The notes below the pieces were generated by a model. That model had not been told where the DNA came from. It ran no database searches and was given only the letters and a program-made list of their open reading frames with translations. Position numbers and translations under genes: made by a program. From Planctomycetota bacterium (GTDB lineage Bacteria > Planctomycetota > Planctomycetia > Gemmatales > Gemmataceae), in contig JAIOPV010000001.1 in assembly GCA_021413735.1 (NCBI GenBank), positions 1 through 49,588 of the forward strand: a stretch of 49,588 bases of DNA, given 5' to 3'. This document shows positions 766 through 26,890 of the stretch, piece by piece (positions within the stretch are counted from its first letter, which is position 1; every line of letters starts with the position of its first letter).

Positions 766-1722
766 TCAGGTAATTAACCTCTTAATCTTGTCAATGGCTA
801 ACTTGATATCGGTTTGAGCGAGGTCCAGGAACTTCATCACCTTTGCGAATGTCGTGTTGCCAGCCAAGACAGCATCCCACCATGCCGAAAGAGCTTCCTG
901 GAATGTTTTCTGCGTCGCCGCTTTATCTGCGAGCGCCTTCGCGATATCGGAAAGATATTCGGTATCCGTTCTCTCCCGCGCCGCCCCTCCCCCTGCCGCC
1001 GTGAACGATGCCAGTTGCTGTTGCTTGTTGATGCTCTGGATATCGGTGATGGCAGGATTCGTGGCAGCGGCTTTCAGCCCGCTGACCCGCTCATCTCGTG
1101 CCTTTGCTTCGTCCTGAAGGCTCTTGGCGAACTGGATCACCACTTCCCGCTGACCGATGCCGACGAGCAGGGTGGCGATGAACGTGGCGAGTGCTTTCAC
1201 AACCTGCCGCACGATGTCAGCCAGTCCCTTGAATGCTTCCTTGGATGCTTTTACGGCATCCCCCATACTATCGCTGAAGATCGCGGTCAGCGTCTTGACG
1301 ATGGCGACGATTAACCCCGTCATGTCAACGAAAAGATCGGCGAGAACACTCACAATATCGGCGAGGATTTGGAACATGGGTATCATCGCCTGGAGAACCG
1401 AGACGACGACACGGACGACGCTGACGAGAACGCCGCCGAATGCCTCCGCGAATTGGTGGAAAATTGGTTCCAGCGATTGCATGAGCGGCAGAAGGACGCC
1501 ACCGATTTCACGCAGTACCGACGCGAACACCTGGAGCGAACTGACGAGGGCCGAACCGATGGTCGCCTGAACGTCCTGCATCGCCTGATTGAACGCCTGG
1601 ACGGTGGATGGCGAGATTGCCTGGACGAACGGCGTTATCGTGCTGATGAGTTGGTCGAACACGCCCTTGAGGGCTTGGAGTCCTTCGACCATCGCCCCAA
1701 CTGCTTCAATTGGATTCGGCAC
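766..1722 (-). CDS. Hydrophobic helical protein, tape-measure-like
   Basis: 318 aa from a GTG start at 1722 with a good ribosome site (GAGGTGA four bases upstream). The protein is almost wholly helical. Residues about 1-200 alternate long amphipathic and hydrophobic stretches (for example VRVVVSVLQAMIPMFQILAD), and the C-terminal third is charged and coiled-coil-like. There is no enzyme motif. The pattern resembles the hydrophobic middle of phage tail tape-measure proteins, and its place after terminase and a sigma-like gene on the same strand fits a late gene. At 318 aa it is short for a tape measure, and no portal or capsid gene is seen between it and the terminase. A pore-forming or other membrane-active helical protein is an alternative. 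Confidence 0.45.
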   Translation of the reverse strand: MPNPIEAVGAMVEGLQALKGVFDQLISTITPFVQAISPSTVQAFNQAMQDVQATIGSALVSSLQVFASVLREIGGVLLPLMQSLEPIFHQFAEAFGGVLVSVVRVVVSVLQAMIPMFQILADIVSVLADLFVDMTGLIVAIVKTLTAIFSDSMGDAVKASKEAFKGLADIVRQVVKALATFIATLLVGIGQREVVIQFAKSLQDEAKARDERVSGLKAAATNPAITDIQSINKQQQLASFTAAGGGAARERTDTEYLSDIAKALADKAATQKTFQEALSAWWDAVLAGNTTFAKVMKFLDLAQTDIKLAIDKIKRLIT

Positions 1723-1784: not shown

Positions 1785-2333
1785 TCAAACCCCCGCCAAA
1801 CGTTCGGCCAGCGTCGTCAGTGCCCCCTCGAAGCGAGCGGATTCGCCCTTCGCCCAACGCGTGACTTTCCCATCGCGGGCGTAAGCCAGCACGACTGACC
1901 GCTGGTCTCGAGGTAGTGTCGCGATTGTCTTGCGAACCAAATCGCGACGCTCGTTCGCCTCTGCCGCGTCGGAGGGGTCTGGCGTGCGGTGATCGGCCGC
2001 GAGTTGCGACATGCAGATCACACGGTCTCCGTGACGGCATCCTTCGGCGGAATTATCTTCGACCTGCACCGTTCTGATTTCGCGTCTCCGCTGATCGCGG
2101 TAACGCCCCGAAACACTGCGGGCGATCAGGCCGATCCACGTCCCATACGACCACTGCGGGTCATAAGTTTCGTGCTTGCGGATGAGGGTCAAGTGGATGT
2201 CGCTTAGAACATCGTCGACGTCAAGCCCGTGCTTGCGTGCGATCCTCAGAGCGAAGGCGTAGATCAGCCGATCCCATTTAGCGAGTTGGTCGCCAACCGG
2301 CAGCGGTTTCGGTTTCTTCACGCGATCAACCAT
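1785..2333 (-). CDS. Sigma-70-like (ECF-type) RNA polymerase sigma factor
   Basis: 182 aa starting at ATG 2333 with GGAGG about 8 bases upstream; its first codons overlap the stop of the upstream gene by 8 bp, suggesting coupling. Residues about 20-75 (DRLIYAFALRIARKHG, then DVDDVLSDIHLTLIRKH, then WIGLIARSVSGRYRD) follow sigma region 2. Residues about 135-175 (TIATLPRDQRSVVLAYA, then a basic helix) resemble a short region 4 in which the helix-turn-helix is weak. In a phage-like operon such a factor could direct late transcription. A degenerate or promoter-specialised sigma is possible, because the usual acidic linker and region-4 recognition helix are not clear. Confidence 0.6.
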   Translation of the reverse strand: MVDRVKKPKPLPVGDQLAKWDRLIYAFALRIARKHGLDVDDVLSDIHLTLIRKHETYDPQWSYGTWIGLIARSVSGRYRDQRRREIRTVQVEDNSAEGCRHGDRVICMSQLAADHRTPDPSDAAEANERRDLVRKTIATLPRDQRSVVLAYARDGKVTRWAKGESARFEGALTTLAERLAGV

Positions 2334-3048
2334 TGGAGCAACCTCCGGCGGTCTGAGTGATGGGCTTGGCCGATCGCCGTGTCGGCTGCGCGGAAGGCCG
2401 TGCGGCTGCCCCGTTGGCGGGCTGTGCCTTCGTCTTGGGTTCCGCCTCGATCGCTAGCACAAGGGCCGTTGCCGGCCCGGCTTGGATCGCCAACGGATCA
2501 CCGGGACGAAACTCAATCCTCACTTCGCCAGACGGCCCCGCGAACTTCTTCATCTGCTCAACTGCGAAGATGAGCGAGTCGACATCGACGAGCAATGCGA
2601 CACCGGCGGATCCTGTCGTCGCCCTACGGAACAACTCGGGCAGATGCAGAACCCGTCTGACAGATCCCGCTGGGTGATGGAACTGGACGTTGTCGAGCGT
2701 CACGTTGAACGTGGGCCGACCGCTCACGCCGGCGACCATCTGCCTGAGCTCATCAGCCGTGAACACGGCTCTGCCGTCGGGTGCGTGTGGGGCTGGCCCC
2801 TCGATTGCGAGAAGACAGCCGTGGGAAGCGCCATAGGCACGGAACCGCCCGCGAAAGGTCGTAACAAGAACTTCTGCGGCGGGTTCGTCGCACACGGGCT
2901 GTGCAGCCTCAGCCACAGTGCCTACGGTCAACGGCAACGCGACATCGAATCCCATATTCGCGGTGGCTCCGAAGGGTGGAGAGTCGGGAGCAATCACAGC
3001 AGGCGTGTCGGTGATGGTGGGCGGACTGGCGAACTCGATACCGCCCAC
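2326..3048 (-). CDS. Unknown protein with possible sliding-clamp-like C-terminal domain
   Basis: 240 aa from GTG 3048 (overlapping the terminase nuclease frame by 55 bp), or 209 aa from ATG 2955. No motif gives a firm family. Residues about 150-210 (ALLVDVDSLIFAVEQMKK, GEVRIEFRPGDPLAIQA, ALVLAIEAEP) have the helix, strand, loop, strand order of the last domain of bacterial DNA polymerase III beta clamps. The tail is low-complexity Pro/Ala/Gln. A clamp would suit an element carrying its own polymerase, but the protein is too short for three standard domains. This is a fold guess only; it could equally be an unrelated structural or accessory phage protein. The next gene starts inside its stop codon region. 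Confidence 0.4.
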   Translation of the reverse strand: MGGIEFASPPTITDTPAVIAPDSPPFGATANMGFDVALPLTVGTVAEAAQPVCDEPAAEVLVTTFRGRFRAYGASHGCLLAIEGPAPHAPDGRAVFTADELRQMVAGVSGRPTFNVTLDNVQFHHPAGSVRRVLHLPELFRRATTGSAGVALLVDVDSLIFAVEQMKKFAGPSGEVRIEFRPGDPLAIQAGPATALVLAIEAEPKTKAQPANGAAARPSAQPTRRSAKPITQTAGGCSNG

Positions 3049-3659
3049 CCACCGGTCGAAAGACTGCCGACGTAGAGAGCCAGGGCAAGGGCAAGCACAA
3101 GGTCGTCATGGTCACGCTCACGCCAGGCGGCGAAGGTCTCGTTCCGGTCGTCAGTGACCTTCGCCCGGAAGTTTTCCAGTTCCTTCTCGATGATCGGTGC
3201 CAGCGGAAGCGCCTCGGCGAACCGGAGTCGCCTGCCCTGCAGGGCTGCCTGTACCGCACCGACCAGATCTTTTTTCGGAACGGTACCGGCTCCGGGTTGC
3301 TGACCCGCAGTGATGGTGAGTGCGCGGAAGTCTTGGGTACCGATCCCACCCTGGCGGAACATATCGACCACGGCTTTACCCACGCCGGTTGCATCAACGG
3401 CGAGCGTTGAGCCCGCAAGTGGTGGCTTCGCGAACATCTCCTTCACATCGCCCACAACGGTCGGGTACGCTGTGCCCAGTTGCCAGCGGTGGGCGTGCCG
3501 CACATCAAACCGGTGAAGCGTCTGGCCCTCCCGGTCCGGGTCGGGGATCTTGGCTACTTCCGCGATGACGAGCGCGGAGAAGTCTTGCGTCTGCCCGAGG
3601 TCTAGCCCCGTGACGAACCGCGTCAGTGACTCAGACGACTGGGAAGAGTGGTGTAACAC
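2994..3659 (-). CDS. Terminase large subunit, nuclease (RNase H-like) part, in a separate frame
   Basis: The reading contains TRFVTGLDLGQTQDFSALVI (first catalytic Asp strand), LAVDATGVGKAVVDMF (second acidic strand) and HDDLVLALALALY (C-terminal acidic helix). This is the classic order of the nuclease domain of phage terminase large subunits. It lies in the +1 frame relative to the ATPase part, so one chain cannot be made without a one-base skip. A GTG at 3659 preceded by AAGGTG at suitable spacing could start it separately, giving 222 codons. The frame is open further upstream to 3764 without homology. It is either a split terminase or a frameshifted gene. Confidence 0.65.
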   Translation of the reverse strand: MLHHSSQSSESLTRFVTGLDLGQTQDFSALVIAEVAKIPDPDREGQTLHRFDVRHAHRWQLGTAYPTVVGDVKEMFAKPPLAGSTLAVDATGVGKAVVDMFRQGGIGTQDFRALTITAGQQPGAGTVPKKDLVGAVQAALQGRRLRFAEALPLAPIIEKELENFRAKVTDDRNETFAAWRERDHDDLVLALALALYVGSLSTGGWAVSSSPVRPPSPTRLL

Positions 3660-4506
3660 TGGAGGCACCTTTTGGGGTCGCGGCAGCCGTCGAGAACAGG
3701 GGCAACACGTCGGCGGATCGGGCCGCCCTGATGTCATCAACCGAGAACACCGCTGCCACGTCATCGCCGAACAGGTTCAGATACGCCATCGCGAACCATC
3801 GTTCGCCCATCGACTTCCGTTCTTTCGCGAGAAACTCTGGCGTGTGACGAGGGCACTCCTTCGCGGTGATCGACCAGCGGCGGAAGCCTTCGCCCTCACT
3901 CCATTCCCGAAAGAACCAACCCGACTTCGAGAACGCGGTTGAGAGCGCCACCAGTTTCCCCTTGGATGCCGACAGTTGAGGGGAAGCACTGTGATAAACC
4001 TCGTCGGGGATGCGTGCAGCCTCGTCGAGAATCAGCAGCGTCGCCGTGTACGAGTGAACCGAGCGCTCCTTGCCTGGAAGCGCGAGGATTCGACTACCGT
4101 TCACGAACTCCAGGGTCGTTACCGCCTCGCGGCGAACTCCGAGCGGCCTGCCGATTGCATTGAAGGCGGAAGTGACCTTCCGCAGCATCTCGTTCGCTTG
4201 CGCCTCGATCGGGCAAACAATCACGACGGTACTGTTCGGTTTTGTCAGTGCCGTGTGGAGTGCGAGAACCGAAACGACGCTGGATTTACCGACCTGCCGA
4301 GCACAAAGAATCAGGTTCATCAGGTCGGTCGAACGCAGGAAGTCGGATTGCCACGGGTCGGGCGGAAGTCCTGCGTCGGCCATCATCCGAGCAGGGTTAG
4401 CCCGGTACTCTGCCAGTCGGTCCGTCGTCGCGGGCATCGCCTGTTCCAACGCCTGGAGGCGGCGGGCTTGGGCTTTCAGCCGGCGGCGAACTGAGTCCAG
4501 CAGCAT
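3631..4506 (-). CDS. Terminase large subunit, ATPase part
   Basis: The 291-aa frame holds the packaging ATPase domain. CARQVGKSS (about residue 68) is the Walker A motif, LLILDEAARIP (about residue 158) is Walker B, and LVALSTAFSKSGWF is the coupling or motif III strand. It stops at 3631, just after the point where the nuclease domain begins in another frame. The enzyme would cut and pump DNA into proheads at a portal. It overlaps the small subunit gene upstream by about 110 bp; an internal Met start at 4437 (MPATTDRLAEY) would reduce that to about 40 bp. Confidence 0.75.
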   Translation of the reverse strand: MLLDSVRRRLKAQARRLQALEQAMPATTDRLAEYRANPARMMADAGLPPDPWQSDFLRSTDLMNLILCARQVGKSSVVSVLALHTALTKPNSTVVIVCPIEAQANEMLRKVTSAFNAIGRPLGVRREAVTTLEFVNGSRILALPGKERSVHSYTATLLILDEAARIPDEVYHSASPQLSASKGKLVALSTAFSKSGWFFREWSEGEGFRRWSITAKECPRHTPEFLAKERKSMGERWFAMAYLNLFGDDVAAVFSVDDIRAARSADVLPLFSTAAATPKGASSVTPLFPVV

Positions 4507-6896: not shown

Positions 6897-9800
6897 TCAA
6901 CCGCCCCAGGTCTTCCCGACGGTTGCCTCGACCTCAACCGGAATGGGGGCGATCAGCGGAACCATGCCGTCGATCATGGCGGCCTTCACCCATGCGACTG
7001 CGGCATCCGCCTGGCCCTCGTCGCATTCAACAACGATTTCATCGTGAACAAACAGCACGGGGAACGCTCCGGGGCACTGCTCCCGACGCTGCCACAGCAG
7101 AGCGAGGGCACGCTTGAGCCCATCTGCACCACTTCCTTGAACGGGCGTGTTCAGTTTTTCGGTGTAGCGGACGACACCAGCGCGACGGCGACCGGCGAGA
7201 GTGCGAGTATCAACTGGTCCCTCCTGGGTGGAGTTGTGCCACTTCCGTAACTCGCGGTAGGTGCGGAAGAACGTGTTGCGGTGGGCGGTCGCCTCAGCCT
7301 CGGTGAGTGCCACGCCGAAGCTACCGAGGGCGTAGGCTTGCAGACCGCGAACGCCTTGACCGTAGAGCAGGCCGAAGTTGACGGCCTTGGCGAGTTGGCG
7401 GTCGGCCTTGGTGACGTCCTGCTTGCCGAGAAGTGCTTGAGCCGTGAGCGTGTGCAGGTCTTCGTTGTCGCGGTAGGCGGCCACCATTCGCTTGTCGCCA
7501 GTGATCTTCGCAGCAATTCGCAACTCGATTTGCGAGTAGTCCGCCTTCACCAGAGTCCGCCCGGGTGGGGCGACGAAGCATCGGCGGTATCGCTGGTCAC
7601 GCGGAAGTTGTTGGAGGTTTGGTTCTTTGCAACTCATCCGTCCGGAAGCCCCAGCCCCGATCTGCTTCCACGTCGCGAACACTCGCGAGCCGGCCGCGAC
7701 GTGGCGAAGCCATTCGGTTCCGTAGGTGCCGCAACGCTTCGCGACGCCGCGGTATTCACGGACGAGTGCCGCAAGTGGGTGGGAAACGGTCGCTAGGGTG
7801 TCGTCGTCAGTGCCCTCGATGGTCACCCCCACGCTTGCGAACGCGGCCAATACGTCGTTGGGGGCATCCCAGTTGCGTGTGTTGGTCAGGGTCGTCGCGT
7901 CGGGGGCGGCGGTGTCGAGTTCTTCCCGCAACTGCTCGCGGCGGGTTCCGGCTTCGGCGGCCAGTGTCTGCCACGCCGGACGATCAAAGCCAACGCCGTG
8001 AAGGGATGCCCACGCCATCGCGGGTAACGCTGCATTCTCGGTGGCGACGGTCGCGGTGAGGCCGGCAGTCTCGATCTCGGGGGTGAGCCGTTCCCGAATC
8101 TGGAGGGGCAGTTCCGCGTCAGTGGCGGCGTAACGGAGCATGTCCGGGGTGAGCGCCTTCGACCAGTCGGCTTTCTGTTCGGTCTTGTCGAGGGCTCGCC
8201 CGAGCACGCGGTTCGCTACATCCTTAAGAGCATGTCTCACGGTGACATCGCCTGCGTGCATCACCTGAGAGGCGAGGATCGTGTCAAACACCCGGTCGGG
8301 GGTGAAGCCGAGACGCACCAAAAACGGCAGATCGAACACGAGATTGTGGCCGACGATTCCGGCCCGGGCGAGTACCTCGAATAACTCGTCGAACGCGGCG
8401 CGGGGGTTATCGAACGCGAACACGTCGATCACGAACGTACCCCTGACGGTGGCGAGTTGGATCAGGCGGATTTTGTCGGTGGCGTGGGATAATCCGGTTG
8501 TCTCGCAGTCGAGTCCGATCATGCCGCCATCGTCTTCGATTGCCGTCACAACGTCAGAGATACCGGCGATTGTGGTGACCAACATGAACGCCATTTGCTC
8601 CGATGTCAGAATTGGGGTACTGGTGACACTTGCCTCTTTGGCGGTGTGACAGTCGCTGCCTGCTTGACCCCCTGTTTGAGGTGCCTCGTTTTCGGAATTG
8701 GGGCTGTGTGTGACAGGTGACACTTCAGACACTCGGTTTTGATCCCCATTCCATTCGTTGCCACAATCGGTTCCCCTGTAAGAAGATGCGTCGGATGGTC
8801 CGAGGTCAGGTCGAGGGCTGTCCGTTGGCGGCTTGGGCCGAGTGTCACCACTGCCGGAGTCCTCGTTGCCCTCCTCATCGTCTGGGCGAGTGTCTGAAGT
8901 GTCACCTGTCACACAAGACCCCTTTCCCAGAATGAAGTAGGTCGGTCGCCACCCTCCGGACGCCCGTTCGGGAGGCAATTCCCACTCTCCAACCTTGAGG
9001 TTCACGAGTCGTTGGAGGTCGGCTTTCGCCTGGTCAGGGGTCTGGTACTTCCTCTGGTTCGCCCGCTGCAGGGTCCGCACACTGACTCGCCCGTCGTTGC
9101 GTCCCGCGAGTCGGCTGACGGTGTCGACCAGTTTCCGAACCTTCTTCTCTTCTGTCGACTCACCCAGGATCGCGTAAACCCTCTCGGTTTCATTCGCGGC
9201 CCACTCAGCGAGCCGAATGCCGGACTCGAGGCTCGCCAGGTTGATCTCGTCCGTGCTGCCTGACGTCGTGGCTGTGTGGTGGACGAGTGCGAAGCGTCCG
9301 GGTAGCGCTTCGAGCTTTGCGAGTGCCGCAGCCTTCTCGCCTTCGGCCTCAAACTGGCGGATACCCCAGGCGTTCACGAATTGCTTGAGTCGGGCTTTCG
9401 CCTCGCGATTCAGTCTCACAACAATAGGGCACAGGTCACCGTCCTCGTCCACTTCGCCCTTGAGATCGAACAATTCCCCAAGGGAGGATTCGGCGGCGGC
9501 TCTGGTGTTGGGGCTGATCTCGTCGTCGCTCCACGTCTTCGGCGTGCGGGGCGGCATGGCGAAGATAATTCGCGCGACCATCCCAGACGCGAACAGGTCA
9601 TGCGATGCGAGGTTTTGGAGAACGCCCGGCTGAATGCCGCCGGTCAGTGACGTGGCCGCATAGGGAACGAACACGCTGGTTTTGTCGCCTGTTTTCCTGT
9701 CATACACGATGGCGTCGGCGCGGTGCATACTCAACCAATTCGGCTCGTCGGTTCCGCCGCCCTTGCCCTTGTATCTCGTGAACGAGCCAAACCAACCGGC

Positions 9801-11201
9801 GAGTTCATCGCGGGCAACGAGGAGACCGCGGCGGTTATCGTCGTGCAGCGAGGTGAGTTTTTCGATTGTGACATCAGCCACCACGACCCGCTTGAGCGTG
9901 GGTTTCGGGGGTGCGTCATCGTGGCTGTCCTCCTCTTTCCGGTCCCCCATCTCTCGCTTGTACGCCTTCAGCTCCTCCTTGAACTCCTTCACCAGCCGCT
10001 TCTGCCTTGCTCGAACCAGATCGATGCTCAAGTTCGCCGCGCTAGTCTTCATTCCACCCGATTCGGCAACCGGACAGGTCCACAGAACCGTCGGTTCAAA
10101 CCACTCCGCACCAAGATGGACACGCCGGGTGTTTCCGATGGCCCCACTCAGGACCGCAAGAAGAGGCAGGGCAACGAGTGTTTCATCGCACCGAAGGGCG
10201 GACGCACCCTCGCGAACGAACTGATCCCAGGGCGGTGGGAGGCAGTCGGTCGGGAACGGCACAAAGGGCTGAATTGGGGTGTAGCGCTCGTGTGTGACAG
10301 GTGACACTTCAGACACTCGCTCCCCGGAACTCACAGCGGACTTCGGCTCCGGTCGGACTCCAAGCCATTCACGAACCTTGCCGACAATCGCCTCGCCGTG
10401 GGCACCAAGCAACTTCGCCAGATGCGGCCAACCCGTCGCCCGCTCGGCCTTGCTGAGCTTTGCTGATGAATCACGCACCCCTCGAATGCGGTCGGAGACC
10501 TCGCGATCGTCGGCCGCGAGGCACACTGCCGTGACAAACCGCTCAATCACCTCGTCCGGCAGGTTCGCGCGGAGAAGCCCACCAGCAACAGCAAGGCTCG
10601 CCTCGTGTCGCCCACCAGTGGGCCAGTGCCTACCGAGGAGCGCAGCAGCAGCAACGCCACGGACGGCCGTGCGGAGAGTCTCGAGGTTGACGTGCGCCGG
10701 CTCGCCGTGTTCGTGCCAGACGCATCGCTCCCCGGACGGATGAATACTCGGCGGCGTCATCGTCTGACCGCCACCCCCTCGCAATTCGATGATGCGCCGG
10801 CTTTCCGCTGCGGTGGCAACGGGGTCATCAAACGATTCGGCGGCCTTGGTCGGGGGCGAGTCAACCCGGTACCAGCGGTGCGAGTGTGGGGAGGACTTTC
10901 GCCCCGAGATCATGCCCGTCCTGGGCATGAGGATCGATGCGGCTCGAACGGCCTCCACGCAATCGAGATCGATGTCGACCAGCCCACCCGAGGGCTCACC
11001 CAGGATCAACCCGAGGTTGGCGTCAGCAGCAAACATCGTGTCCACATCAGACGGGGCGAGTCGCAGTCGCGGCCAGTCAGCCACGGTGGGTCGCTTGCTC
11101 CGAGGCGGCAGGGGCAACGGGGCATACCCGGCGGCCAGGAAAGCGAGGGCCGCACTACGGACGTCCATGGGCGTGCCGTTCTTTGAGAGGGCGCTAGTCA
11201 C
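6897..11201 (-). CDS. Four-module replication protein: primase-polymerase + DUF3987 ATPase + 3'-5' exonuclease + family-A DNA polymerase
   Basis: 1434 aa from GTG 11201, whose GTGA overlaps the stop of the gene before. Residues about 14-180 are an AEP primase-polymerase (GLVDIDLD with D76/D78; SPHSHRWYR with H106/H108; strand IIELRGGGGQ). Residues about 310-640 are a DUF3987 primase-helicase-type ATPase (Walker A-like ESGGMKTS at 380-387; LLVARDE, D465/E466), with a winged-helix-like end to about 757. After a low-complexity linker (760-870) come Exo I (GLDCET, D898/E900), Exo II (GHNLVFD, D957) and Exo III (YAATD, D1028). The polymerase has motif A (DYSQIELR, D1221), motif B (R1268, K1272, F1276, Y1280 on the O helix) and motif C (VHDE, D1387). 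No 5' nuclease domain is present. Each module belongs to a well-known family; that they work together as one replication enzyme is inference. Confidence 0.93.
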   Translation of the reverse strand: MTSALSKNGTPMDVRSAALAFLAAGYAPLPLPPRSKRPTVADWPRLRLAPSDVDTMFAADANLGLILGEPSGGLVDIDLDCVEAVRAASILMPRTGMISGRKSSPHSHRWYRVDSPPTKAAESFDDPVATAAESRRIIELRGGGGQTMTPPSIHPSGERCVWHEHGEPAHVNLETLRTAVRGVAAAALLGRHWPTGGRHEASLAVAGGLLRANLPDEVIERFVTAVCLAADDREVSDRIRGVRDSSAKLSKAERATGWPHLAKLLGAHGEAIVGKVREWLGVRPEPKSAVSSGERVSEVSPVTHERYTPIQPFVPFPTDCLPPPWDQFVREGASALRCDETLVALPLLAVLSGAIGNTRRVHLGAEWFEPTVLWTCPVAESGGMKTSAANLSIDLVRARQKRLVKEFKEELKAYKREMGDRKEEDSHDDAPPKPTLKRVVVADVTIEKLTSLHDDNRRGLLVARDELAGWFGSFTRYKGKGGGTDEPNWLSMHRADAIVYDRKTGDKTSVFVPYAATSLTGGIQPGVLQNLASHDLFASGMVARIIFAMPPRTPKTWSDDEISPNTRAAAESSLGELFDLKGEVDEDGDLCPIVVRLNREAKARLKQFVNAWGIRQFEAEGEKAAALAKLEALPGRFALVHHTATTSGSTDEINLASLESGIRLAEWAANETERVYAILGESTEEKKVRKLVDTVSRLAGRNDGRVSVRTLQRANQRKYQTPDQAKADLQRLVNLKVGEWELPPERASGGWRPTYFILGKGSCVTGDTSDTRPDDEEGNEDSGSGDTRPKPPTDSPRPDLGPSDASSYRGTDCGNEWNGDQNRVSEVSPVTHSPNSENEAPQTGGQAGSDCHTAKEASVTSTPILTSEQMAFMLVTTIAGISDVVTAIEDDGGMIGLDCETTGLSHATDKIRLIQLATVRGTFVIDVFAFDNPRAAFDELFEVLARAGIVGHNLVFDLPFLVRLGFTPDRVFDTILASQVMHAGDVTVRHALKDVANRVLGRALDKTEQKADWSKALTPDMLRYAATDAELPLQIRERLTPEIETAGLTATVATENAALPAMAWASLHGVGFDRPAWQTLAAEAGTRREQLREELDTAAPDATTLTNTRNWDAPNDVLAAFASVGVTIEGTDDDTLATVSHPLAALVREYRGVAKRCGTYGTEWLRHVAAGSRVFATWKQIGAGASGRMSCKEPNLQQLPRDQRYRRCFVAPPGRTLVKADYSQIELRIAAKITGDKRMVAAYRDNEDLHTLTAQALLGKQDVTKADRQLAKAVNFGLLYGQGVRGLQAYALGSFGVALTEAEATAHRNTFFRTYRELRKWHNSTQEGPVDTRTLAGRRRAGVVRYTEKLNTPVQGSGADGLKRALALLWQRREQCPGAFPVLFVHDEIVVECDEGQADAAVAWVKAAMIDGMVPLIAPIPVEVEATVGKTWGG
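8707..8735 (-). repeat. 29-bp repeat, copy 1 (direct with copy 3)
   Basis: Begins TGTGTGACAGG and ends CAGACACTCG on the plus strand; identical over 29 bp to 10291-10319 and to the reverse complement of 8887-8915. On the coding (minus) strand it encodes RVSEVSPVTH (residues 823-832) in the ATPase-exonuclease linker. It contains tandem GTGACAG and GTGACAC. Confidence 0.95.
8887..8915 (+). repeat. 29-bp repeat, copy 2 (inverted)
   Basis: Perfect reverse complement of copies 1 and 3, 151 bp from copy 1, so the two could pair as a 29-bp stem in single-stranded DNA or RNA. It encodes CVTGDTSDTR (residues 763-772) at the start of the same linker. Confidence 0.95.
10291..10319 (-). repeat. 29-bp repeat, copy 3
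   Basis: Identical to copy 1; encodes RVSEVSPVTH (residues 295-304) in the linker between the primase-polymerase and DUF3987 modules. Thus every copy lies at a module boundary of the fused protein. Confidence 0.95.
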
Positions 11202-14502: not shown

Positions 14503-15879
14503 GTGGCACATCTCGTTCGCCAGAGCTTCACCTGCTACGTCGATGCCAACGGGAAGCGAGTCCCGAAGGGCACAAAAAAAGCCAAGAAGGTGACCGAGAA
14601 GAGCGCGAAGTGGTACGGCTGCGCGTTGCCGAATCAGGGCAAGAAACGCTTCCCGCTTGCCACCGATAAGGCTGTCGCACAACGGATGCTCGCAGACCTC
14701 GTCGAGAAGTTCGAGCGCGGCACCGCGAACATGGCGGTGCGTGAAGAGACGAGTCTGGCGCTGTCATCGCTGATCTCCGAGTTCCAAGAAGCCGTTCGCC
14801 GAAAGTCGAGCGAGAAGCACACCCTCGACGTGATCGGCCACGTGAAGAAGGTAATGGCTGGCTGCAAACTCAAATCTCTCGGTGATCTGCGATCGCCCGG
14901 ACTTGTCCCGAAGGTCGAGGCGTTCGTGTGGTCGCTGATGAAGGGCGACGAGCCGATCACCTCGACGACGGCAGCCTACACCGGGAAGCATGCTCGGGGA
15001 TTCACCCGATGGCTCTGGAAGAAGCGGAAACTCCTCGACAATGACCCACTCGCCGGGATGGATCTGCCGAGCCAGCAGACCGACAACCCGCGCCGTGATC
15101 TCAGCGTTGACGAACTCGAACGCGTGCTTGCGGCAGCAGAGGCCAGCACCGAAACAATCCGCAGTCTCGCGGGCCCGGATCGGGCGCTCATCTACCTGCT
15201 CGGTGCCGCGACTGGATACAGGGCCGGGGAGTTGGCGCGACTCACACCCGCCGACTTCGATCTCGACGCCGATGTGCCGGTGGTTCGGTTGAAGGGCAAG
15301 CAGACGAAGAACAAGAAGCCAGCCGAGCAACCGCTCCCACCTGGGCTTCGCGCCCGGCTGCGATCCTACCTTGCGGGCCGTCTTGCTGGCGATCGCGTTT
15401 GGCCGGGCCTTTGGTACCGACGAGCCGCAGACATCCTCCGTGTCGATCTGGCGACCGCTGGCGTGCCCGAGATGGCCAGCACCGGCGAAGCGGTGTTCCA
15501 CTCGCTGCGACACAGTTACTCATCGTTCCTCGCTCGCTCCGCGTCGGTGAAGGTCACGCAAGAATTGCTCCGGCACGCCTCCCCGAATTTGACCATCGCG
15601 AGGTATTCACATTCCACACTCGCCGAGCGTGCGGAAGCGGTCGCGGCGCTGCCTCTTCCCGGTGAGGGAATCACGGCCGGTCCGTTCGCCGGAATGCCCC
15701 GAGCAGAACTGGAAACGACCGCGGAACAACTGCTCATCACCGTGCAGGCGATCACCGCGACGGTTGCCGCTTTGCTTACTCCCGTGCTTACACCTCTGCT
15801 TACACCCGATTCGGGGATTCTTGGGAATGATGGGGGACGGGTGGACACAACAACCCACCCCGGAAGGCGGGTGGGTTGA
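14503..15879 (+). CDS. Tyrosine recombinase (phage-type integrase)
   Basis: 458 aa from GTG 14503 (GGAGG nine bases upstream). The N-terminal about 75 residues are basic (arm-binding type), then a SAM-like core-binding domain (about 80-185). The catalytic domain carries TGYRAGELARL (R240), a beta-hairpin Lys near 264-271, HSLRHSYSSFL (H333, R336), LLRHAS (H358) and ARYSH (nucleophile Y368), so it looks active. A low-complexity C-terminal tail follows. It points at the tRNA-Arg gene 70 bp away, the usual place for an integrase next to its attachment site. Confidence 0.92.
   Translation: MAHLVRQSFTCYVDANGKRVPKGTKKAKKVTEKSAKWYGCALPNQGKKRFPLATDKAVAQRMLADLVEKFERGTANMAVREETSLALSSLISEFQEAVRRKSSEKHTLDVIGHVKKVMAGCKLKSLGDLRSPGLVPKVEAFVWSLMKGDEPITSTTAAYTGKHARGFTRWLWKKRKLLDNDPLAGMDLPSQQTDNPRRDLSVDELERVLAAAEASTETIRSLAGPDRALIYLLGAATGYRAGELARLTPADFDLDADVPVVRLKGKQTKNKKPAEQPLPPGLRARLRSYLAGRLAGDRVWPGLWYRRAADILRVDLATAGVPEMASTGEAVFHSLRHSYSSFLARSASVKVTQELLRHASPNLTIARYSHSTLAERAEAVAALPLPGEGITAGPFAGMPRAELETTAEQLLITVQAITATVAALLTPVLTPLLTPDSGILGNDGGRVDTTTHPGRRVG
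15851..15878 (+). terminator. Hairpin at the integrase stop
   Basis: CAACCCACCC (15851-15860) and GGGTGGGTTG (15869-15878) form a perfect 10-bp stem with an 8-base loop, ending on the stop codon. The run after it is only moderately T-rich, so termination could be weak or bidirectional, serving the tRNA side too. Confidence 0.55.
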
Positions 15880-15934: not shown

Positions 15935-15948
15935 TGCCTGATACTGAG

Positions 15949-16022
15949 TACGCCCGTCGGGACTCGAACCCGAAACATCCCGCTTAGAAGGCGGGTGCTC
16001 TATCCAGTTGAGCTACGGGCGC
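15949..16022 (-). tRNA. tRNA-Arg (anticodon TCT)
   Basis: Minus strand folds as a full cloverleaf: 7-bp acceptor (GCGCCCG with CGGGCGT, last pair G-U), D arm GCTC/GAGC, anticodon stem CCCGC/GCGGG around CTTCTAA (TCT), T arm TCGGG/CCCGA with TTCGAGT, discriminator A, and no encoded CCA. Total 74 nt. It decodes AGA. The 3' end faces the integrase, consistent with use as an attachment site. Confidence 0.96.
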
Positions 16023-24459: not shown

Positions 24460-25218
24460 ATGAGCGTAAAAGCCGTTTCCTATTTGCGGGTATCGGGCAA
24501 AGGGCAAGTTGAAGGCGACGGTTTCGAGCGTCAACGGGTCGCAATTCAGTTGCATGCACAGCAGCATGGGCTCGAAATCGTTCGTGAATACCGCGAAGAA
24601 GGGATCAGTGGGACGCGGGACGCCGACGAACGCCCTGCTCTTTCGGAGCTGTTGGCTGAAATCGCAGGTTGTGGCGTGCAGATTGTTCTTGTCGAACGTG
24701 CTGACCGTTTGGCTCGTGATTTGATCCTCGGAGAGCTATTGCTGGCGGAGTTCCGGAAGTTGGAGGTTGCTGTCATCGCCGTTGATGCTGGCGTTGATCT
24801 CACCGCCGCAGATGCGGACCCAACGAAGAAGTTGATTCGGCAGATTCTGGGAGCATTGTCGGAGTGGGAAAAGACCGCGTTGGTGCTGAAATTGCGAGTG
24901 GCAAGGCAGCGAATGCGACGCTTCAGTGGACGTTGTGAGGGCGACAAGCCGTTTGGGTTCAAACCCGGTGAAGCGGCAATTCTACTTCGGATTACGGAAT
25001 TGTCTCGTAAACCACGAAACGGCAAGCAATTGAGTGCCGGACGAATTGCGAAAATCTTGAACCACGAAGAACGTCCCACACGGTCCGGGAAGCCCTGGAG
25101 CCGTGGGTCAGTGTGGGTGATCTTACAGCGGGTAAAGGGTCGGAGCCGAAGCATTCACACCGGGGTCACGCCATCTGCTTTGGACGCTGATAGTCGAAGA
25201 CGTATCGGTAAATCGTGA
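24460..25218 (+). CDS. Serine recombinase (resolvase family)
   Basis: 252 aa from ATG 24460. The catalytic domain has YLRVSGKGQVEGDGFERQ (nucleophile S12), EEGISGTRDADERPAL and VERADRLARDLI (catalytic Arg pair). LSEWEKTALVLKLRVARQRM is the long E helix, and LSAGRIAKILNHEERPTRSG a short recombinase/HTH domain. It is compact and lacks the large C-terminal domain of phage serine integrases. Its last 53 bp overlap, tail to tail, the larger recombinase on the other strand. It is divergent from the HUH gene across a 128-bp AT-rich spacer. Confidence 0.88.
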   Translation: MSVKAVSYLRVSGKGQVEGDGFERQRVAIQLHAQQHGLEIVREYREEGISGTRDADERPALSELLAEIAGCGVQIVLVERADRLARDLILGELLLAEFRKLEVAVIAVDAGVDLTAADADPTKKLIRQILGALSEWEKTALVLKLRVARQRMRRFSGRCEGDKPFGFKPGEAAILLRITELSRKPRNGKQLSAGRIAKILNHEERPTRSGKPWSRGSVWVILQRVKGRSRSIHTGVTPSALDADSRRRIGKS

Positions 25219-26890
25219 TGCGATCCAACCCGGTTGCCGCCATGATTTCCTTGTAAGACTGTCCTTCTTCCAACCGCATCCGTTTGCATGTCGTTTTGAT
25301 TTTGCCAAGCGGGTCGGTATCCACTGGAAACCCCACGTCGGGGGTCAAGCCATTACGCACCAAATCCGGTAGTTTTTCAAATTCACCTCGCTGCATCTTG
25401 TAATGGCAACCGCCGTCAACCACGCGACCCGCTTTGAGGGTGTAGTAGAACAGGTGCGTCTGCCCGTCTTTCAGTGTGATAAGTGAAAGCACATACTTGC
25501 CACTGTACTTGTCGCCCACCACTCGCACGTCAATGCCAACAACAACTTGCCGAATTGTCATCCGCAAGGCACGACGCATAGTTTCCAACTCTTCGCCCTT
25601 TGCAGTCTTCAGTGCGTCCACCAACCGCTGACCATGCAGAAAGTGACTTTGAAGCGGAACACTTGCCGCATCTGCCTTTTCACTTGCTGTCCGGTGACGT
25701 TTTTTGAGGGTGGTCAATTCATCAAGATAGCCTTCCTCGATCAAAGATGAATCTGCTTTGATCTTGGCGTCTAGGATTCGGATTTGCCGCTCTAACGCAT
25801 CGGCTTGTGCTTTAACCGTTGCGTAGCCATCATCTTGCTTGGTGCAGAGTCTGACTTCCTTCACCCACCAAAGGAAAGCTCGCTCAAACGGTTCGTATTT
25901 GAAGCCGGGTGTGGTTCTCCGAGCAGGTTGAAGGTATCCAGTAAAGTTTGTCGCTCGATAGGAACACTGTTCGCCATTTTGCCACACCAACCCAGTGAAC
26001 AGGTTGGATACCTTTTTCGTGATTTTTCCTCTTTCACACCGGCGGGCCAGCATCGCATTACGGTTCTGTTGCCAAACTTCTTCGGTCACGACGGACGGAA
26101 AGTATCCTCTCACTACGGGACCGGCATTCACACGCTTGCCGTCATTCATTTGCTGCGGTTGAAAATCACCCATCACAGCTCGTGATGACAGAATTTTGAC
26201 CACATAGCTTTCATGCCACATTTTCGCGGGGCTGATGGGTTGCACTTTCTCGCCATTTAGCCTCTTCGTGATGCTCTGCGTGCCAAATCCCTGAACAGAC
26301 AAGGCGAAGATACGACGAACGACGTCCGCTTTCGTGGTGTTTTCGACCAATTTGCCATCCACGACTTGCACCCACGCTGGAACTTTCGCAGTCAACGGTT
26401 TTTCCGCGAGCGATTGGCGACGTCGTTGCCAGTTGTCGAGTGAACGAAAGCTCTTCGTTTTCGATTCCGAGTGTGCCCTTTGGAATTCCGCGTCGATCAA
26501 CCAGTGAGTGACTTCATAGTTTTCAGCGGTGAACTCGACATTGGTGAAAAGAGTTACGATGCGAATGCCATGATCCAACAACAATTCCCGAACGAGAGCC
26601 TGCCCGTGAAAGAGATGTTCACGGCTCAAACGATCAAGGCTTTCGACCAGCAGGTACGAACCGCGTTCGATCTGCTTTTCGCGGCAGGCTTGAAGAAATA
26701 GCCCTAATTTCCCACGCTTTCGATGCGTGCCATGGAAGCCACTCAGCCCCTCATCGAAGTAGTTGGATTGTTCATCCAGAGAAACGCCCTTTTGCTTGCA
26801 CCATTGGTGGGCGAGTTCAAGCTGACGGAGAAGCGAATTGCCCTTTTCTTGACGTTTTTGCGAGAATCGACCGTAAAAGTATGCTTTCAA
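25166..26890 (-). CDS. Large serine recombinase
   Basis: 574 aa from ATG 26890. Catalytic domain: YGRFSQKRQEKGNSLLRQL (R8, S10), FDEGLSGFHG and ESLDRLSREH. Recombinase domain at about 175-290 (VRRIFALSVQGFGTQSITKR, then WHESYVVKILSSRAVMG). A degenerate zinc-ribbon (NLFTGLVWQNGEQC) is followed by a coiled coil (ALERQIRILDAKIKADSSL). The C-terminal HTH is YKEIMAATGLDRITIYRYVF. Such enzymes integrate and excise mobile elements; the att site is usually beside the gene's 5' end, here about 26891-27000. Base use is closer to moderate GC than the chromosome around it. Confidence 0.88.
   Translation of the reverse strand: MKAYFYGRFSQKRQEKGNSLLRQLELAHQWCKQKGVSLDEQSNYFDEGLSGFHGTHRKRGKLGLFLQACREKQIERGSYLLVESLDRLSREHLFHGQALVRELLLDHGIRIVTLFTNVEFTAENYEVTHWLIDAEFQRAHSESKTKSFRSLDNWQRRRQSLAEKPLTAKVPAWVQVVDGKLVENTTKADVVRRIFALSVQGFGTQSITKRLNGEKVQPISPAKMWHESYVVKILSSRAVMGDFQPQQMNDGKRVNAGPVVRGYFPSVVTEEVWQQNRNAMLARRCERGKITKKVSNLFTGLVWQNGEQCSYRATNFTGYLQPARRTTPGFKYEPFERAFLWWVKEVRLCTKQDDGYATVKAQADALERQIRILDAKIKADSSLIEEGYLDELTTLKKRHRTASEKADAASVPLQSHFLHGQRLVDALKTAKGEELETMRRALRMTIRQVVVGIDVRVVGDKYSGKYVLSLITLKDGQTHLFYYTLKAGRVVDGGCHYKMQRGEFEKLPDLVRNGLTPDVGFPVDTDPLGKIKTTCKRMRLEEGQSYKEIMAATGLDRITIYRYVFDYQRPKQMA

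Follow-up and report, generated by a model that had tools for sequence, protein, structure and literature searches.

Chains that combine a primase, a helicase, a proofreading exonuclease and a DNA polymerase have been described before, and we compare with them a gene from a Planctomycetota bacterium (Gemmataceae; GenBank assembly GCA_021413735.1, contig JAIOPV010000001.1, positions 1 to 49,588, the whole of which is termed the window). This gene encodes a Prim-Pol domain, a DUF3987 domain, a 3'-5' exonuclease and a family-A polymerase, the last two together called exo-PolA. The apicoplast protein Prex of Plasmodium and Toxoplasma combines primase, helicase and 3'-5' exonuclease/PolA functions in a single polypeptide (PMC8113025). 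GP55 of lactococcal phage 1706 carries a helicase, an AEP primase, an exonuclease and a family-B polymerase (PolB) in one protein, with four activities reported; the paper presents the union of four activities in a single protein as unprecedented, and the word Plasmodium does not occur in its main text (PMC12205980). GP55 differs from the present family-A chain in its polymerase family and its N-terminal helicase, and the accessible parts of its description mention no in-gene array.

Other systems share parts of this arrangement. The Pyrovirus/3173 PolA of Thermocrinis Octopus Spring virus is a 1606-residue chain with a DUF927 region, an exonuclease and PolA, fused in some viruses and a separate open reading frame (ORF) in others (PMC7689252); its front half is of the DUF927/COG5519 kind, and neither Prim-Pol nor DUF3987 is described in the passages cited. 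PrimPol-helicases of mobile elements join an AEP domain to an ATPase, with DUF3987 among the putative helicase partners (PMC5862659). This is the arrangement of pRN1 ORF904, NrS-1 and the all3500-type proteins (the latter with DUF3987), for which the accounts consulted describe no exo-PolA half. Replication of pRN1 needs a stem-loop just 3' of the primase-helicase gene, of which the structure, not the sequence, is kept (PMC4234260). The lambda origin lies within the O gene, where inverted repeats are bound by O (PMC5043065).

Because Prex and GP55 are already four-in-one chains, such a chain is not new in itself. A first-pass annotation of the window, made by a model from the letters alone, knew of no protein with all four domains. 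This holds for the exact combination in the literature searched, mostly open-access, which gave no account of a Prim-Pol/DUF3987/exonuclease/PolA chain or of its in-gene arrays; it does not hold more broadly, since Prex and GP55 (with PolB) are comparable. What is new is this domain combination, the fusion of the same exo-PolA to five other front ends, and inverted arrays placed before the exonuclease. The in-gene arrays and the module exchange are stronger news than the four-domain chain, and the linker arrays and the prophage setting are additions to the earlier annotation. The gene is probably a prophage replicase, with a front half predicted to prime and unwind, an exo-PolA half predicted to extend, and a linker array that would act as the origin.

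Domains, relatives and fold of the chain

The gene and its parts are as follows.

6897-11201, minus strand: four-domain replicase gene, 1434 codons plus one stop, GTG start at 11201
10692-11150, minus strand: Prim-Pol (AEP) domain, residues 18-170 (Pfam, 4.6e-14)
10362-10685, minus strand: helical region after Prim-Pol, residues 173-280 (secondary structure of the AlphaFold 2 (AF2) model)
10260-10349, minus strand: linker 1, residues 285-314 (low-confidence stretch 286-307)
9159-10247, minus strand: DUF3987, MCM-like AAA+ core, residues 319-681 (Pfam match 339-677, 8.8e-62; AF2 model and fold searches)
8598-8927, minus strand: linker 2, residues 759-868, the helicase-exonuclease junction (Pfam, AF2 model and codon analysis)
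8070-8579, minus strand: 3'-5' exonuclease (DNA_pol_A_exo1), residues 875-1044 (Pfam, 3e-26)
6903-7814, minus strand: family-A polymerase (DNA_pol_A), residues 1130-1433 (Pfam, 1.6e-63)

Pfam profiles match the replicase in the order Prim-Pol, DUF3987, DNA_pol_A_exo1 and DNA_pol_A, all above their curated cut-offs (Prim-Pol, PF09250, 53.6 bits against 22.8; DUF3987, 209.8 bits against 27). By PHROGs, the back half is a 'DNA polymerase' (phrog_17), the middle a 'DNA helicase' (phrog_2373) and the front a 'DNA primase' (phrog_1156), and NCBIfam NF011539 reaches 591 bits, below its cut-off of 640. The Pfam matches and the reading of the frame bear out the earlier claim that all four domains lie in one uninterrupted frame of 1434 codons, and the domain search that the first-pass annotation proposed finds AEP, DUF3987, exonuclease and PolA alike. 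The strand, which that annotation did not give, is minus, and the present assembly shows no stop or frameshift in the gene.

Relatives were sought in 95 genomes of the bacterial family, 15 of which have a match at E <= 1e-110, and the fetched loci were read in six frames for intact single-frame copies. Nine intact four-part copies with the same domain order, the window included, were found in 8 genomes (window, L002, L003, L005, L107, L101, L102, L103 and L104); the frames of L116 and L121 run off their contigs, and L128 and L127, which appear to duplicate L101 and L104 in a second collection, were not counted separately. Pfam was run on five of the nine copies and calls all four families in the window, L101, L102 and L103. 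It makes no Prim-Pol call in L104, where this domain is recognised solely by a profile built from five other members. The four-part calls for L002, L003, L005 and L107 come from the alignment and from a profile to whose building these copies contributed (L107 under the name L021). The eight further fused copies are 38-61% identical to the replicase, and four of them come from G002, G012 and G013, genomes that consist of one, three and four contigs.

Two neighbouring genes of the same order are clear at G063 (L105/L112) and G112 (L118/L111). Less clean cases are G116 (L106, with one stop within the match) and G007 (L113, with DUF3987 and exo-PolA genes, Prim-Pol not being in that frame). The homologues are thus not always two separate genes, as the first-pass annotation had considered; fused and two-gene forms occur in one bacterial family. 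Among 392 genomes sampled across the phylum, a full-length match at 1e-90 was found in the window's own genome only, and a partial match in one other genome. A phage collection of 50,697 records gives matches somewhere in 4,648 of them and no single place that covers 80% of the replicase, nor was an 80%-covering place found there for the L034 chain described below. Of 72,556 plasmids, 167 match the replicase, none at 80% coverage. Viral contigs scanned with the single protein gave two weak PolA matches; an alignment query did better, and exo-PolA relatives are present on IMG/VR contigs.

Two observations concern further copies. A second exo-PolA of the family, 49% identical, lies in the same genome as the window (G000:C133:9177-10892; L029, L115); because its frame reaches the contig end, a front partner would be off the contig. 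Several decayed copies lie on contig 1 of G007 at ~2.08-2.15 Mb and 5.29 Mb (L025-L028), and two of these are broken identically, which suggests duplication of an already broken element.

The catalytic residues listed in the first-pass annotation are all at the positions it gave, and all except H106 are invariant in 9 of 9 intact homologues. These are D76, D78 and H108 in Prim-Pol; K385, D465 and E466 in DUF3987; and D898, E900, D957, D1028, D1221, R1268, K1272, F1276, Y1280 and D1387 in the back half, which thereby has the Exo I-III acidic residues and the Pol motifs A, B and C of the exo-PolA class. H108 is taken as the AEP histidine because H106 is not conserved among the homologues. E139 and R141 are likewise invariant in all nine intact copies and presumably form the third AEP motif. 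The AEP motifs are named DxD, sxH and third motif, and residues for each are present in the replicase (D76, D78, H108 and E139). DUF3987 likewise retains its key residues, the Walker A lysine (K385) and the Walker B acidic pair (D465, E466), so that neither module is of the kind without key residues that the earlier annotation had envisaged. Its Walker A departs from the usual form in having no G before K, and reads SG[GTA]xK[ST] in 8 of 9 copies and PGATKS in L104.

An AF2 model of residues 1-770, built from an 18-row alignment, has a mean predicted local distance difference test (pLDDT) score of 85.5, with values below 50 at residues 1-9, 286-307, 479-482 and 761-770. In this model, the helical region at residues 173-280 is possibly a primase helix bundle. 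Foldseek ranks MCM helicases first, with RuvB, papillomavirus E1 and ASFV PrimPol in lower rows. VIA-align, applied to the Foldseek rows, gives 6mii_B as the best match (Z 18.0, root-mean-square deviation 3.7 A, 267 residues), and among the matches listed (50 of 942 chains with Z >= 2) all are MCM or MCM-holding complexes, with Z 15.8-18.0. The alignments lie mostly over residues 319-681 at ~10% identity, which is a similarity of fold only. These scores indicate that DUF3987 is here an AAA+ core of the MCM kind by fold, and such a core may unwind DNA and form a ring. In the parts of the literature naming DUF3987 that were available, no assay of its motor was found. The activities of the chain are all predicted from its sequence, and conservation, the domain search and the AAA+ fold match support the earlier proposal of a near-complete replication machine.

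The solved structures nearest to the back half by sequence are 8jrb and, just behind it, Prex. The likeness to Prex extends to all four functions being in one chain, and the replicase may work like Prex without being classed as one. Prex is encoded by a nuclear gene that serves an organelle; here a phage gene combines AEP Prim-Pol with DUF3987. The Prex primase is of the Toprim kind and its helicase is Twinkle/DnaB-like, and no Toprim or DnaB match was found in the replicase (Pfam, E up to 1).

Inverted arrays inside the coding sequence

Three exact copies of one 29-30 nt sequence lie within the replicase gene.

8706-8735, no strand: inverted-array arm with ~9-bp units, the unit length read by eye (repeat search)
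8887-8915, no strand: opposite arm, at a distance of 151 nt from the first, of which it is the exact reverse complement for 29 nt
10290-10319, no strand: third 30-nt repeat copy, in linker 1, direct relative to 8706-8735

The third copy is 1.4 kb from the arrays in linker 2, and the 24-nt core of the repeat occurs at only these three places in the 9.8-Mb genome when up to 3 mismatches are allowed. Linker 2, the site of the arrays, is the sole segment of the gene in which G+C at third codon positions (GC3, 0.53) is lower than at second positions (GC2, 0.60); GC3 exceeds GC2 throughout the other segments. The array DNA encodes segments that have model pLDDT below 50 or are outside the model. Because the inverse copy encodes a different peptide, protein-level selection alone does not explain the identity of the repeats.

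Arrays in homologues have different sequences in a similar arrangement, such as TGTGTGACG-TGTGACACG-TGTGACACT in L107 and TGCCCGACG-CCCGACTTG-CCCGACTTG in the two-gene L105. For all but one of the nine intact genes, the region between DUF3987 and the exonuclease is where the best inverted 20-mer pair of the gene falls, with scores of 18-20 and gaps of 147-191 nt, and two of these arms start no more than two residues from the end of the DUF3987 match. This nine-gene test used 12 shuffles per gene and 86 control ORFs, of which 4 scored on N runs only; one of the 82 usable controls scores 18 and the rest score 17 or less. A first control set (60 ORFs, several scoring 19-20) was dropped, with overlapping ORFs and N runs not cleared.

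A broader test examined the 650 nt before the exonuclease in 54 rows of the family. A pair scoring at least 18 is present in 31 rows, and 32 rows beat all 20 of their codon shuffles; among 44 rows of cellular Pol I in the same test, the best score is 15 and none beats all shuffles. The shuffle-beating rows with scores of at least 18 include Chloroflexi (L126, L129), Meiothermus (L130) and Verrucomicrobia (L139, L140, L143, L144, L147, L148). Left out of this test were duplicate, shortened or distant loci, those with an exonuclease match starting after model position 25, and those with less than 300 nt upstream. Among the 54 rows (45 of which are individually listed), there remain at least three same-region pairs (L105/L112, L111/L118 and L032/L114), and two rows, L006 and L007, stand close to L003. 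Locus number (L158 up) served to group the control rows, and their identity as Pol I with a 5'-nuclease region was judged from the majority consensus.

The arms change together. Over 12 genes, they agree at 88% of positions within a gene and 57% between genes, arms swapped between genes reach at most 73% in 2000 trials, and 24 of 29 arm columns hold two or more complementary pair types. The 12 genes were chosen from 17 and registered by eye, with L006 and L007 (near copies of L003) and L102, L113 and L118 (not in register) left aside. In a test for a 9-bp lag over 12 genes, only L105 exceeds its shuffles and L107 and L106 tie with theirs. Because this test is weak, the inverted pairing is the firm signal.

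Prim-Pol/DUF3987 genes without exo-PolA on IMG/VR contigs have best pairs of 15-16 in L052, L057, L062, L063 and L075; L086 has a best pair of 19 with a gap near 400. Two cyanobacterial plasmids were scanned over 1.5 kb upstream: the inverted pair in L205 scores 19, where its shuffles reach 17, and L204 has none (16 against 18). As a separate observation, a frame that seemingly runs across the record start of L204 (plasmid pAL20115a, 11478-12209 and 3-1949) lies just upstream of an exo-PolA gene, is not in the annotation, and is perhaps the plasmid's primase-helicase.

Repeats or a stem-loop in or beside an initiator gene, with structure kept across relatives, are thus found in this family, if not in every member. 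The stem-loop of pRN1 is described as non-coding; the array here is within coding sequence. As reported for lambda, the proposed origin lies inside the initiator's own gene. The lambda iterons are described as 19 bp long, binding O dimers and lying beside an AT-rich stretch, and no such stretch lies between the arms here. Lambda O is itself not known to be a replicase.

Front ends joined to related exo-PolA halves

One genome per species was scanned with a nine-row alignment, which gave at least 594 stretches (586 confirmed, the best 80 kept), and IMG/VR was scanned as well. Related exo-PolA halves are fused to Prim-Pol with an unnamed middle (L139, L142, L148), to a BT4734-like domain with a similar unnamed middle (L143, L147), to a partial Prim-Pol with PriCT-1 (L141), to a DnaG-type zinc ribbon (L126), and to DUF3854 with a DUF927 match below threshold (L034). 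L143 and L147 have middles with 54% and 60% identity to the L148 middle, though the primases differ. Front partners also occur as neighbouring genes, with Prim-Pol at L136 and Toprim plus DUF3987 at L146. In profile searches of the PDB, A3 matched one unrelated protein besides three chains of ORF904 (best E 0.017), and A4 had no match; an AF2 model of the unnamed L148 middle (mean pLDDT 42.6) was not used.

A quick tree built from 51 exo-PolA parts places rows with different front ends close together. The BT4734-like L147 falls with the Prim-Pol rows L145 and L148 at a Shimodaira-Hasegawa-like approximate likelihood-ratio test (SH-aLRT) support of 100, L143 groups with L139 at 93, and L034 stands next to L102/L103 at 89. 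The label 'fused' requires at least 12 changes on this tree, against a shuffled mean of 15.0, and 31 of 500 shuffles are as low. Because some short forms are decayed copies, no direction of change is read from the tree. We regard the primase-helicase front and the exo-PolA back as two modules that can be separated and that a linker joins in the replicase; in relatives they are fused or encoded by neighbouring genes, or the back half has another front half. Replication modules that displace each other have been proposed before, in a paper on TV-Pol (PMC2579912).

A wider reading, which we offer tentatively as somewhat short of probable, is that phage and mobile-element replicases across phyla may share one exo-PolA with interchangeable front ends, most having an in-gene origin at the module junction. 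The front ends would comprise Prim-Pol with DUF3987, Prim-Pol with the unnamed middle, the BT4734-like domain with the same kind of middle, Prim-Pol with PriCT-1, the DnaG zinc ribbon, and DUF3854 with DUF927. The origin would be a self-complementary array of ~9-bp (three-codon) units, with a sequence that differs by member.

Prophage setting and proposed mode of replication

The replicase gene lies in an element with these further features.

14503-15879, plus strand: tyrosine integrase of the prophage (protein library matches)
15948-16022, minus strand: tRNA-Arg (tct), the integration site (tRNA search)
15949-15992, no strand: 44-nt attachment core, repeated at G000:C221:3257-3300
3631-4506, minus strand: terminase large subunit, ATPase part (library matches)
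2994-3764, minus strand: terminase large subunit, nuclease part, in another frame (library matches)
1785-2333, minus strand: sigma-70-like protein (library matches)
766-1722, minus strand: tape-measure-like protein (PHROG matches only, none in Pfam)

A 28-nt stretch from the 3' part of the tRNA gene recurs at exactly one other place in the genome, on contig C221, and was extended by eye to the 44-nt core; ARAGORN finds no tRNA in the 9 kb fetched around that second copy. Because the duplicated core looks like a product of integration, the element is taken as a prophage, and it has the integrase, the attachment-site duplication at a tRNA and the packaging genes expected of one. The middle of the prophage is not on the examined parts of the two contigs (the window contig and C221).

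Around four other copies of the replicase, part of the neighbouring genes were scanned. A serine integrase and a ParB-methylase fusion lie near three of them (G012, G002 and G013:C1, the last also with a sigma-like gene nearby), and the three proteins scanned beside the G013:C3 copy gave no match. BLAST at 1e-5 against ten contexts finds, beyond the replicase, the sigma-like protein in common with G013:C3 and the integrase in common with G016. The ParB-N/DNA methylase fusions are at L015 13294-14478, L019 11518-13605 and L022 470-1681, and the methylase part of L019 seems to be split by a long insertion.

Several other observations were made near the element. At its other end, adjoining the attachment core, is a 792-residue serine-threonine-kinase-like frame (L123 676-3054; phrog_2361). 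Beyond the tRNA from the prophage, two serine-integrase-like genes (phrog_95) lie in opposite directions at 24460-26890 of the window, in a stretch of lower G+C (~0.50). The 240-residue protein encoded at 2326-3048 has no match in Pfam, PHROGs or NCBIfam; it faintly recalls a sliding clamp, which is our impression only. Two overlapping frames on the minus strand share the terminase large subunit between them (2994-4506), and their best PHROGs are separate families (7579 and 27743); this may be a natural split or a frameshift.

We propose that replication would proceed as follows. The front half would load on the array, which lies at the 3' end of the sequence encoding that half, and open the DNA, where the MCM-like AAA+ motor of DUF3987 would unwind as a ring and the Prim-Pol domain would lay primers. 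The tethered exo-PolA half would then take over from the primase-helicase, extending and proofreading. The position of the array at the primase-helicase end, both in the fused genes and in two-gene forms like L105/L112, fits an origin that was made captive in frame on fusion. That the array is an in-gene replication origin is plausible, and we place it a little below an even chance.

A number of results weigh against this proposal. The Foldseek rows for MCM are modest (E 3.9e-4, TM-score 0.23) and weak alone. The pair in L104 (score 18, gap 45) is below the shuffle maximum of 19 in the nine-gene test, yet beats its shuffles in the 54-row test, where 22 of the 54 rows do not beat all of theirs (among them L116, L121, L132, L145, L146 and L153). 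In the window gene, the 9-bp lag test gives 12 of 18, below a shuffle maximum of 15. An AT-rich opening bubble between the arms was considered and rejected, as this stretch has a G+C of 0.60 against 0.63 for the gene (24th percentile of the gene); over 12 genes the percentile of the between-arm stretch, which alone was tested, ranges from 0.02 to 0.94. Copies broken over frames (L004, L006, L007, L023, L025 and L032) indicate that the elements decay often, and because the terminase halves are in different frames, this prophage may itself be partly decayed. Finally, the RNA stem of the array is very stable (z -7.46, with 0 of 200 shuffles as stable), so that a role in RNA is possible.

Because the stem would also form in RNA, processing of the mRNA is the main rival to an origin. 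The chain would then be a precursor that is cut into a primase-helicase and an exo-polymerase, by a protease at linker 2 or by RNase III-like cleavage of the mRNA stem, with the arms as an RNA processing signal. Besides the stability of the stem, the arms keep complementarity and not sequence, two-gene relatives of the same order exist, and Prex is reportedly processed proteolytically to its polymerase (PMC7689252). We nevertheless regard a precursor as unlikely: the two-gene L105/L112 has an array towards the 3' end of its front gene too, although nothing there needs cutting, the third copy is far off in linker 1, and an RNA stem has no need of tandem units.

The arrays might instead be sites of recombination at which new front ends are exchanged, with no role in replication, and they do lie at the junction where the front ends of related exo-PolA halves differ. 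This is improbable, as the arm sequences differ between most genes and so provide little shared homology, and the complementarity kept within each gene suggests continuing selection. It is decidedly improbable that the protein serves in repair or defence, as an enzyme of a decayed element, and is not the replicase of that element. Intact relatives are found in bacterial genomes, several further copies are broken, and the phage collection has no 80%-covering place; against this stand the linked integrases, terminase, sigma-like and ParB-methylase genes, the key residues invariant in all nine intact copies, and the exo-PolA relatives on IMG/VR contigs. An assembly error or chance readthrough, conceivable from one assembly of 293 contigs, is very unlikely indeed given that eight other intact copies are fused too, of which four lie in the genomes of few contigs named above.

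The protein is a prophage counterpart of Prex and a family-A counterpart of GP55, with an MCM-like motor, and chains of this kind are candidates for amplifying DNA with a single enzyme. If the proposal is true, the gene would be a complete replicon, with replicase and start site in 4.3 kb. The co-varying arrays raise the questions of where primase-helicase replicons start and whether a protein linker can house an origin.

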